The notes beneath the pieces were generated by a model. That model made no database searches. It was not told where the DNA came from and saw only the letters and a program-made list of their open reading frames with translations. Positions 50,853 through 59,022 of a stretch of DNA of 59,283 nucleotides are shown here, in pieces. The stretch spans positions 1 through 59,283 of the forward strand of contig JAAWBG010000050.1 of assembly GCA_022792535.1 (NCBI GenBank), read 5' to 3'. Position 1 is the first letter of the stretch. Each line of letters begins with the position of its first letter. The position numbers were made by a program, and so were the translations under genes. The DNA comes from Lachnospiraceae bacterium. GTDB lineage: Bacteria; Bacillota; Clostridia; Lachnospirales; Lachnospiraceae.

Positions 50853-51351
50853 CTGCAGCCTCCTCTCCGGCCTCTGTCTCCCGGCCTTCTTTCAGCTCCT
50901 TGATCAGCTCTCTTGCCTTTTCCGGGGTCATGGCTGGATGTACCACATCATTTACAGTACACACAGGCGCAAGACCGCAGGCTCCCAGACAAGACACTGT
51001 CTCAACGGTAAACATCATATCGTCTGTGGTAGGCTTTTCTTCTGTCACGCCTAACAGACCTCGTATCTCATTTAAAATTGCTGTGGACTGCCTTACATGG
51101 CAGGCAGTTCCGTCACAGATCTTAATGACATATTTTCCCTTTGGCTCCAATGAGAAATTCTCATAAAATGTCGCCACCCCATACACTTTTGCCTCGCTTA
51201 AATGCAGCTTCTTTGCAATATAGCAAAGCATCTCCTCCGGCAGATAGCGGTATACTTTCTGGATATCCTGCATAATTGCAATAACCGCCGTCTGATTGTA
51301 ATCGTGAGATGACAAAATCTCATCTAATACTTTCTGATCTTTTGCTTCCAA
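50842..51351 (-). CDS. nuoE: NuoE-like hydrogenase subunit (HydC/HndA)
   Basis: 169 residues. Thioredoxin-like [2Fe-2S] protein: cluster ligands in CDGTACHVRQ and CLGACGLAPVC; upstream helical part with YRYLPEEMLCYIAKKLHLSE and VYGVATFYENFSLEP. It passes electrons within the hydrogenase complex. The start is TTG at 51349-51351, 8 nt after a strong AAGGAGG. A short glutamate-rich tail ends the protein. The gene is preceded by a leader of about 360 nt full of hairpins. Confidence 0.93.
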   Translation of the reverse strand: MEAKDQKVLDEILSSHDYNQTAVIAIMQDIQKVYRYLPEEMLCYIAKKLHLSEAKVYGVATFYENFSLEPKGKYVIKICDGTACHVRQSTAILNEIRGLLGVTEEKPTTDDMMFTVETVSCLGACGLAPVCTVNDVVHPAMTPEKARELIKELKEGRETEAGEEAADEN

Positions 51352-51381
51352 TCCTTCTCCTCCTTGTGATACATGATAAAA

Positions 51382-51404
51382 AGAATTTCGTTTTACGAAA
51401 TTCT
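51382..51404 (-). terminator. Terminator-shaped hairpin T1 in the hydrogenase leader
   Basis: AGAATTTCG (51382-51390) and CGAAATTCT (51396-51404) form a perfect 9-bp stem with a 5-nt loop. On minus a run of five T follows directly (CTTTTTATC). It lies about 30 nt before the nuoE start, so if active it would stop transcripts before the operon. Confidence 0.6.
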
Positions 51405-51458
51405 GCGCCGCAAATGCGTCGCTTTAGCGACTTATTTCCTTTGCATTTGCGCGTGCAT
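51403..51458. repeat. Structured module X, copy 1
   Basis: On minus this reads as a stem CGCAAATGC/GCATTTGCG, an internal bulge AAAGGAAATAA and an apical hairpin GTCGC-TAAA-GCGAC. Copy 2 (58830-58882) keeps the flanks GGCGCAG and ATGCrC, the bulge core AGGnAAA, and has different stems that still pair. Confidence 0.65.
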
Positions 51459-51463
51459 CTTTG

Positions 51464-51532
51464 CTTTTTCTCTTAGGAAAGGCACTTTCACATTTTAACG
51501 TGACAAGGTCTTTTCTAATATAAGAGAAAAAG
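51464..51532. repeat. Structured module Y, copy 1
   Basis: Long arms 51464-51480 and 51511-51532 pair around a core (51484-51517) that matches 58907-58940 at 29 of 34 positions. The core contains ACAAGGTCTTT and a small hairpin with a TTTA loop on plus (TAAA on minus). Confidence 0.7.
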
Positions 51533-51553
51533 AATCCTGCTTTACAGGATTCT
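51531..51553 (-). terminator. Terminator-shaped hairpin T2 in the hydrogenase leader
   Basis: AGAATCCTG (51531-51539) and CAGGATTCT (51545-51553), a perfect 9-bp stem, 5-nt loop, followed on minus by TTTTTCTC. Same size, loop length and closing AGAAT as T1. Confidence 0.6.
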
Positions 51554-51561
51554 CCGCCTGC

Positions 51562-51611
51562 GGCGGGCCGCTTCCGCGGCTCACTTCTTTTCCGCCGCAG
51601 TGCGATAATCT
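51562..51611. repeat. Dispersed repeat module B, copy 2
   Basis: Homologous to 46184-46232 and, in shortened form, to 58731-58766. Inner palindromes CCGCTTCCGCGG and the GCGGCGG/CCGCCGC pair make it hairpin-prone. Confidence 0.75.
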
Positions 51612-51618
51612 TTTTTAA

Positions 51619-51652
51619 TTCTATAGGAAATCCGAAAAAATTTCCTATAGAA
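51619..51652. other. Hairpin T3 in the hydrogenase leader
   Basis: TTCTATAGGAAAT (51619-51631) pairs perfectly with ATTTCCTATAGAA (51640-51652). A further 9-bp pair, TAAACGGGT (51653-51661) with ACCCGTTTA (51681-51689), follows and would be the first structure in the transcript. Confidence 0.6.
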
Positions 51653-51721
51653 TAAACGGGTATTTTCAAATGGAAACAGCACCCGTTTATGCCTTCACTC
51701 TATCTTGTCTGTTTCCCTCTT

Positions 51722-51750
51722 AGTATAACATTGTTAAATAATTAACTCAA
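51722..51750 (-). promoter_or_regulatory. Promoter for the hydrogenase operon
   Basis: On minus TTGAGT (51745-51750), a 17-bp spacer and TATACT (51722-51727). Transcription would begin near 51715, giving a leader of about 360 nt before nuoE. Confidence 0.6.
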
Positions 51751-58730: not shown

Positions 58731-58766
58731 GCTTCCGCGACATCATTCTTTTCCGCAGTGTGAGAA
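58731..58766. repeat. Dispersed repeat module B, shortened copy 3
   Basis: GCTTCCGCG and TTCTTTTCCGC-AGTG match module B copies at 46184 and 51562, with a deletion in the CCGCCGC part and several changes. Confidence 0.5.
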
Positions 58767-58800
58767 CAAAGCGGACAGGTCCGCTTCAACTCCCTGAATC
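58763..58800. repeat. Repeat module Z, copy 2
   Basis: 33 of 38 bases match 52254-52291. Here AAGCGGAC/GTCCGCTT pairs perfectly, whereas the copy in the DUF952 gene has lost part of the pairing. A CCCTCA/TGAGGG hairpin (58800-58815) follows. Confidence 0.8.
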
Positions 58801-58829
58801 CCTCACTCATGAGGGACCTGGACGGTTTG

Positions 58830-58882
58830 CTGCGCCGAGCACAATTGCGAAGCAATATTTTACCTCTTGTGCGAGTGCGCAT
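58830..58882. repeat. Structured module X, copy 2
   Basis: On minus: stem GCACAA/TTGTGC, bulge GAGGTAAAATA, apical TTGC-TTC-GCAA, flanks ATGCGC and GGCGCAG. Same plan as 51403-51458 with compensating stem changes. Confidence 0.65.
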
Positions 58883-58886
58883 ATTA

Positions 58887-58951
58887 TTTTTATCTTATAG
58901 GAATATACTTTCACGCTTTAGCGGGACAAGGTCTTTCCTATAAGATAAAAA
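58887..58951. repeat. Structured module Y, copy 2 (ends at tRNA-Gly)
   Basis: Perfect 17-bp arms 58887-58903 and 58935-58951 enclose the conserved core. On minus the right arm starts with a T run directly after the tRNA-Gly 3' end, so this copy may also serve as the tRNA terminator. Confidence 0.7.
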
Positions 58952-59022
58952 AGCAGATAACGGGAGTCGAACCCGCCTTTCCAGCTTGGGAAGCTAGCGT
59001 TCTACCGATGAACCATATCTGC
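58952..59022 (-). tRNA. tRNA-Gly (anticodon CCC)
   Basis: 71 nt without encoded CCA. Acceptor stem GCAGATA/TATCTGC, T discriminator, T arm GGCGGGTTCGACTCCCGTT, anticodon loop TTCCCAA in a CTAGC/GCTGG stem. Reads GGG codons. Upstream (59035-59079) is a GTAAGCATT/AATGCTTAC inverted repeat of unknown use. Confidence 0.93.

Follow-up and report, generated by a model that had tools for sequence, protein, structure and literature searches.

Three-hairpin repeats behind intrinsic terminators in Lachnospiraceae are probably small non-autonomous mobile elements

What are the hairpin-rich repeats in this Lachnospiraceae contig, and how did they come to lie where they do? By the window we mean the whole stretch of DNA that was analysed (59,283 nt). 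The initial annotation had described two copies of a two-module element, at 51403-51532 and 58830-58951 and in a common order and orientation, and had proposed a structured RNA or a REP-like DNA hairpin. Both copies were recovered, and the elements read on the minus strand. On this strand each copy consists of three hairpins, termed SL1 (the module previously called Y), X, and T (a terminal hairpin with a T-run). The third hairpin, with its T-run 3′ of X in each copy, had been overlooked, as had an extra unit with a simpler first hairpin that adjoins copy 1 directly upstream (51532-51656). Copy 1 is thus a two-unit array. The features, identified from the sequence and in the case of SL1 also with our model R1, are:

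51464..51532, minus strand: SL1 of copy 1 (= Y), a long stem with a conserved internal loop and a TAAA-loop hairpin, core 51484-51511
51404..51458, minus strand: X of copy 1, with an outer stem, the lower stem CGCAAATGC/GCATTTGCG, the 11-nt 5′ bulge AAAGGAAATAA and the hairpin GTCGC-TAAA-GCGAC
51378..51403, minus strand: T of copy 1, the hairpin GAATTTCGTAAAACGAAATTC (51383-51403) and then a T-run
51611..51656, minus strand: SL1 of the neighbouring unit, of the simple type W, a plain palindrome
51553..51605, minus strand: X of the neighbouring unit, of a GC-rich type (TGCGGCGG / CCGCCGCA)
51527..51552, minus strand: T of the neighbouring unit, the hairpin GAATCCTGTAAAGCAGGATTC (51532-51552) and a T-run, directly 5′ of copy 1 SL1
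58887..58952, minus strand: SL1 of copy 2 (= Y), which begins within the T-run that follows the tRNA-Gly gene directly; core 58907-58934
58831..58881, minus strand: X of copy 2, with the lower stem GCACAA/TTGTGC, the 11-nt bulge GAGGTAAAATA and the hairpin TTGC-TTC-GCAA
58764..58828, minus strand: T of copy 2, of a long type, its final hairpin GCGGAC-CT-GTCCGC followed by TTTGTTC

The unpaired parts are conserved between the copies, as had been noted, in the X bulges (AAAGGAAATAA and GAGGTAAAATA), the Y core (AGACCTTGTC-10nt-GTGAAAGT) and the TAAA loop. The paired arms differ and still pair, again in keeping with the earlier description: the lower stem of X is CGCAAATGC/GCATTTGCG in copy 1 and GCACAA/TTGTGC in copy 2, and its apical hairpin is GTCGC/GCGAC in the one and TTGC/GCAA in the other. 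Model R1 scores SL1 at 66.4 bits (E 1.6e-14) in copy 1 and 92.5 bits (E 2.4e-21) in copy 2, each copy being itself part of the model's alignment, and matches the neighbouring unit at 51600-51661 with 29.7 bits. In general a unit runs from SL1 through an A-rich linker to X and T and is roughly 70-190 bp in size. SL1 is found as type Y1 (AGACCTTGTC-10nt-GTGAAAGT), Y2 (ATACCGTGTTACTGTGAAGTGCTAAAGT) or W, a simple palindrome whose loop is, for example, ATTCCTCCGGAT. The right arm of SL1 is complementary both to the left arm and to the T-run, the T-run being the foot of the SL1 stem.

Some modules have peculiarities of their own. X modules carry a constant, purine-rich 5′ bulge of 10-12 nt, often AGGAAAT, that resembles a ribosome-binding stretch. 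The long T module (58764-58828 and sister copies) has two mutually exclusive pairings, AGGTCC/GGACCT or GCGGAC/GTCCGC, which both change consistently between copies and recall an antiterminator/terminator pair. Another short repeat, with the ends GATTAGGGTGTCAAAAG / CTTTTGACACCCTAATC, lies within SL1 stems, to the left of SL1 at loci L009 and L032 and in the right arm at L013 and L040. At L032 it is bordered on either side by CTTATAG, as by a 7-bp target duplication, so that SL1 stems themselves appear to be a MITE target.

That the stems change together holds over many copies. The SL1 alignment started from 198 segments, 101 of them distinct, of which 78 were used and 23 left out (mostly without a clear right arm); seven more rows, one of them on the wrong strand, were dropped before the final alignment, in which both window copies were kept (n = 74). 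There, 88.7% of cells are paired (83.5 when shuffled) and in 106 cells both partners have changed and the pair is preserved, compared with 41 ± 6 in shuffles (0/500 as high) and at most 28 when the structure is slid along the alignment, figures that are flattered by the prior dropping of rows. In two less selected tests the result is alike. The own right arm beats the arms of other copies (141/149 copies tested; mean pairing score 14.0 vs 11.8), and just 26/141 copies beat 95% of arm swaps because many copies share arms. Among the 101/149 copies with parsable arms, the six bases outside the TATAGG arm are paired in 5.15/6 positions vs 4.25 when shuffled (maximum of 2000 shuffles, 4.60). X behaves alike in 19 types, chosen by eye, a choice that favours paired cases, mostly from 43 clusters of which many were not X. 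The 5′ arms of their stems come in 16 lower and 12 upper versions, with Watson-Crick pairs at 119/122 lower and 93/93 upper positions (arm swaps average 0.68 and 0.71, and reach at most 0.83 and 0.84 in 500), and a 5′ bulge of 10-12 nt in 19/19. Both strands beat dinucleotide shuffles in folding, the minus strands with z −3.7 for copy 1 and −6.2 for copy 2 and the plus strands with z −7.8 and −5.2, and folding alone therefore cannot tell which strand matters.

The repeat is common in this genome and its relatives. The SL1 core pattern AGACCTTGTC-N{4,20}-GTGAAAGT has 43 matches in the window's genome and none in a backward control, which argues against chance. For 12 of these 43 a contig end is less than 300 bases away, so that 43 is probably an undercount; the element also breaks assemblies. 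Inside the window, allowing up to 2 mismatches gives 29 matches vs 25 expected, the informative ones being the 2 exact ones only. Units can stand head to tail, e.g., with four cores at 601, 745, 925, and 1069 of contig G000:C8 of the window's genome, and near-identical units are found at different genes. The initial annotation had named a lack of further copies in related genomes as evidence against its reading, and this did not come about: the core pattern is present in 18/61 genomes, comprising 17/29 of the genus (own included), 1/8 from other genera of the family, and 0/24 from other families. Eubacterium sp. 14-2, Lachnospiraceae bacterium A2, and Lachnospiraceae bacterium 3-1 are among the matches listed in a wider contig scan.

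Across the order, model R1 (E ≤ 1e-3) has matches in 27/392 genomes and 20/174 genera. The scan was strictly filtered and scored no more than 11 candidates in any genome, so it undercounts the own-genome copies as well. We read by eye 19 R1 loci fetched from outside the window's genome. Eleven have SL1 and an X-like hairpin behind a T-run, most with a T-like end; among these, L357 (from another family) has a Y-like core and the remaining ones are of type W. Of the others, four have a palindrome without X, L360 has an SL1-like hairpin alone, L375 is doubtful, and at L361 and L372 the stretch inspected missed the match. The SL1-X-T layout is probably older than the genus, though type W is simple and the relatives were judged by eye. 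No named family had been recognised in the initial annotation, and Rfam agrees: at gathering score it returned two tRNAs only over the window, with the element unmatched, and at E ≤ 1 on eight element loci it returned RNase P and three sub-threshold matches only. Sub-threshold matches to L20_leader and sR52 overlap with the element at L366 and L357, on the opposite strand. In searches of the open-licence literature, no title or abstract opening describes the element. A phage or plasmid origin was considered and rejected, with 0 exact core matches in viral contigs; blastn with 195 nt of copy 2 as the query matched no plasmid or phage.

Copies sit behind intrinsic terminators. A hairpin of −6 kcal/mol or better with a T-run (an in-house rule, not a published terminator finder) lies directly 5′ of SL1 in 125/145 copies vs 16/144 random positions at the same loci; by this rule 20/145 copies have no terminator. 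Some of the upstream terminators are the T end of a preceding unit, and in copy 2 the T-run is directly at the 3′ end of tRNA-Gly. Only 3/116 cores fall within an ORF of 100+ aa, compared with 94/116 random 28-mers at the same loci (116/149 copies had enough flank). A common gene context was not noticed in the element flanks read. A unit behind a terminator would be transcribed by read-through, giving an RNA that ends at T. The gene beside the window array is, we presume, nuoE, the start of a hydrogenase/NADH-dehydrogenase-like cluster, and the array lies between a conserved promoter-like stretch (51722-51750) and this gene. The two T hairpins in the presumed leader (window 51351-51750), between the promoter-like stretch and nuoE, could lower its expression. 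Among relatives, G017 and G028 carry a unit upstream of the promoter-like stretch and G024 a T-like hairpin only; no element was noticed in the 420-nt stretches of 20 others.

Copies come and go between close genomes. G028 and G017 are 97.1-100% identical over the long matches of their shared loci, and above 99.4% in most of them. Out of 20 G028 copies, 18 have an SL1 copy at the matching place in G017, one is replaced and one absent (one of the 18, at 3364653, was compared via the whole-locus match only, and at L191 and L209 the G017 contig runs out). Movement is thus rare. At the empty site G024 and G017 read TTTATTT-ATC-ATACAAAA and G028 has 90 extra nt; between TTTTTTATTT and ATACAAAAATTACTG the former have ATC, the latter 93 nt beginning ATC. 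The 90-nt junction allows three placements within 2 nt, each with the A on the target's side. There is no clear target-site duplication, with at most 2 ambiguous bases, in this sole base-precise comparison of filled and empty site. The G028 insert runs from (TC)TTATAGGAAAG to CACTTTGTTC(TC), and its ends, by eye, are not inverted repeats. G024 is the cleaner empty site because G017 also lacks some 48 nt slightly downstream.

Other sites show replacement of one variant by another. Behind the tRNA-Gln terminator, L211 (G028) and L208 (G017) have identical flanks, and stem, X, and T are all different; this is a hot spot with a different unit per genome behind the same terminator, also at L310 (G021), L333 (G003), and L334 (G012). 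For G021, the left flanks of 25 loci were searched, and we read 10 of these loci beside the 19 stretches orthologous to them in G003 and G012. At L317 and L311 neither relative has an element, and both keep the terminator. At L312, L310, and L302 the terminator is shared, and what follows it in the relatives is another variant or a remnant. At L306 and L307 one relative has a decayed copy and the other shows none clearly, and at L318, L308, and L303 the relatives have neither the element nor a clearly shared terminator. Five orthologous pairs with flank matches were found between G028 and G024, and four were read (L199 was left out). L201 is empty in G024 with the terminator kept, and the window's genome also has no element there; L197 and L217 have different units behind the same terminator; at L213 both the element and the same terminator are missing from G024. 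Four Ts adjoining SL1 at L201 are missing from the empty G024 site, which makes the left boundary of the element unsure. An initial comparison, of 8-kb loci, yielded few usable empty sites, as the genomes were not close enough. The replacement of variants could be recombination between repeats.

The flank itself may take part. We could parse 123/172 distinct Y1-type SL1 copies for the base left of TCTTATAGG. Behind host terminators (n = 99) this base can form a Watson-Crick pair with the right arm in 78% (36% expected), whereas behind the element's own ends (n = 24) it matches in 33% (33% expected), and such a chance-level match speaks against a strict pairing requirement. At the empty G017/G024 site the base is already A and matches the right arm of the G028 copy. 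At the L317 site, G003 (L331) has a C that matches the L317 right arm and G012 (L330) has an A; at the L311 site the base is A and the L311 right arm is lost. The data fit pairing between target and element, perhaps with the SL1 right arm as a guide. A template switch once the element is in place, or a left boundary that lies further out (as L201 raises), could also account for this match.

We conclude that both window copies probably belong to a small non-autonomous mobile element that inserts immediately 3′ of intrinsic terminators. SL1 starts in the T-run of the target and the unit ends in T, which makes a new terminator-like site, and this fresh site would explain the head-to-tail arrays. 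Position and movement rest on direct observation; how the element moves we infer as follows. The SL1 core may be the recognition structure for a mobilising protein whose substrate would be a folded single strand of RNA or DNA, and the choice of site may be helped by pairing of the SL1 right arm with the target flank. The place just behind a terminator is a safe landing place, and insertions would be harmless thanks to landing there. From the earlier proposal of a structured RNA or REP-like DNA hairpin the hairpin stands, and a REP-like repeat is closer than a discrete regulatory RNA since copies come and go between close genomes, are intergenic, and follow terminators, not one particular gene. 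We do not call it a REP, because it is longer and three-part and PF01797 was not found in the 92.7% complete draft of the window's genome.

How else could these repeats arise? They could descend from an insertion sequence without target-site duplication (TSD), with the transposase supplied in trans, which we regard as unlikely. The lack of a clear target duplication and the hairpins near the ends of our element are in keeping with the IS200/IS605, IS91, and IS110 groups. As to enzymes, the Y1 transposase (PF01797) is present in G028 but had no match in six element-rich genomes (the window's own, G024, G021, G011, G002, and G017), and the Y2 transposase (PF04986) had none in the own genome, G028, and G017. 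IS110 (PF01548) is over the cut-off in 19/29 genus genomes, including the own, G024, G028, and G021, but is unmatched in G002, G005, and G016 (14, 9, and 9 copies) and is found in 11/14 genomes with at least 3 copies vs 8/15 with fewer, which speaks neither for nor against it. Among 12 IS110 loci read, SL1 units were seen at L390 only, outside the transposase ORF. IS110 as the mobiliser fits only loosely. At L390 (G012:C22) the IS110-type transposase gene starts shortly after the W palindrome that ends the unit array, and the repeat may there serve as an IS110 landing site. We regard it as highly improbable that the element derives, much reduced, from a class C group II intron, or is an RNA that the intron's reverse transcriptase moves. 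It has the same address behind terminators and a similar pairing with the flank (PMC3522654), but Rfam finds no group II intron in the window or the eight loci, and RVT_1 (PF00078) is unmatched in G024, G002, G005, and G016 despite 18, 14, 9, and 9 copies. G024 is 99% complete in 4 contigs; G002, G005, and G016 are 82-92% complete. The sole RVT_1 match of the own genome (G000:C80:3882-4514, L292) has no SL1 core near it; it is a 430-codon frame beside other large frames and gives the impression of a defence-type reverse transcriptase. Around 60 Y1-transposase and RVT_1 loci the core pattern was not found, with TATAGGAAA-type arms at five and a T-like end at two, and a looser search gave one variant SL1 inside the Y1-transposase locus L261. 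No autonomous copy with an ORF between SL1 and T was noticed in an unsystematic look at the element flanks read. No mobilising enzyme was found among the Y1, Y2, RVT_1, and IS110 families. Several of these genomes are drafts, draft assemblies lose transposons, and the burst of the element in the own genome may predate loss of the enzyme.

There are two further readings. A structured RNA with a host function (an sRNA or 3′-UTR element), its copies multiplied by ordinary duplication, seems quite improbable to us. The covariation of SL1, the loops and bulges kept while stems vary (also across the 19 X types picked by eye) and the fixed orientation relative to the upstream terminator speak for it. 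However, no common gene context was seen in the flanks read, copies behind terminators would be transcribed mainly by read-through, presence and variant differ among near-identical genomes, and the complementary strand folds equally well. We give even less credit to the idea that nothing moves at all and that terminator regions change by replication errors, units being multiplied by slippage or recombination. Template switching in quasi-palindromes would rewrite one arm from the other, and stems would then change together. Such switching is reported to create and maintain RNA hairpins (PMC8794818). T/A runs invite slippage, and at L325 the right arm departs from its subfamily at several neighbouring bases and matches its own left flank. 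Against this, a 28-nt core is common to unrelated loci in 17 genus genomes, one genome has a 90-bp unit where another, with identical flanks, has none, and near-identical units stand at different genes.

Within the preferred reading, a mobile element, we tentatively raise the possibility of a new class of this order. It would use two cues (the terminator hairpin with its T-run, and SL1 right-arm/flank pairing as a built-in guide), act through a folded single strand and an enzyme other than Y1, Y2, or RVT_1 proteins, and rebuild its own target at its 3′ end. In any case, a second, unrelated, and much smaller element that shares the habit of class C introns would point to a new terminator-recognising integration activity in abundant gut bacteria. 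If so, many repeated intergenic hairpins of gut bacteria would be explained. The element also makes a question testable, namely whether covariation across repeats reflects function, guiding, or template switching.

Several known systems resemble the element in part. MITEs are likewise short, non-coding, high in copy number, and presumably moved in trans, whereas the ends of our element are not terminal inverted repeats and the one precise comparison gave no clear target duplication. REP/BIME sequences are repeated intergenic palindromes with conserved unpaired parts, sometimes in arrays, as are our units; unlike REPs with their RAYT, the element is three-hairpin and terminator-bound, and PF01797 is unmatched in the own (92.7% complete), G024, and G021 genomes. 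It shares the lack of a clear target duplication and the subterminal hairpins with IS200/IS605, but the Y1 transposase is missing from six element-rich genomes (drafts may miss copies), and it differs from IS91 in that the Y2 transposase is unmatched in the own, G028, and G017 genomes. Pneumococcal BOX elements are modular intergenic repeats with exchangeable parts, and in this the element is like them, by description and not by sequence; we know of no terminator targeting by BOX. In integrons folded attC sites are recombined by IntI, and the arrays of units each ending in a hairpin recall attC cassettes by analogy only. To our knowledge, class C (IIC) group II introns are the only elements known to land just behind terminators. 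Our element is far shorter, has no Rfam intron RNA (domain V) and, judged from G024, needs no reverse transcriptase. Class C introns insert downstream of Rho-independent terminators, where IBS1 is read by pairing with EBS1 (PMC3522654). The element shares with them the insertion just 3′ of intrinsic terminators (125/145 vs 16/144) and a pairing with the target flank.
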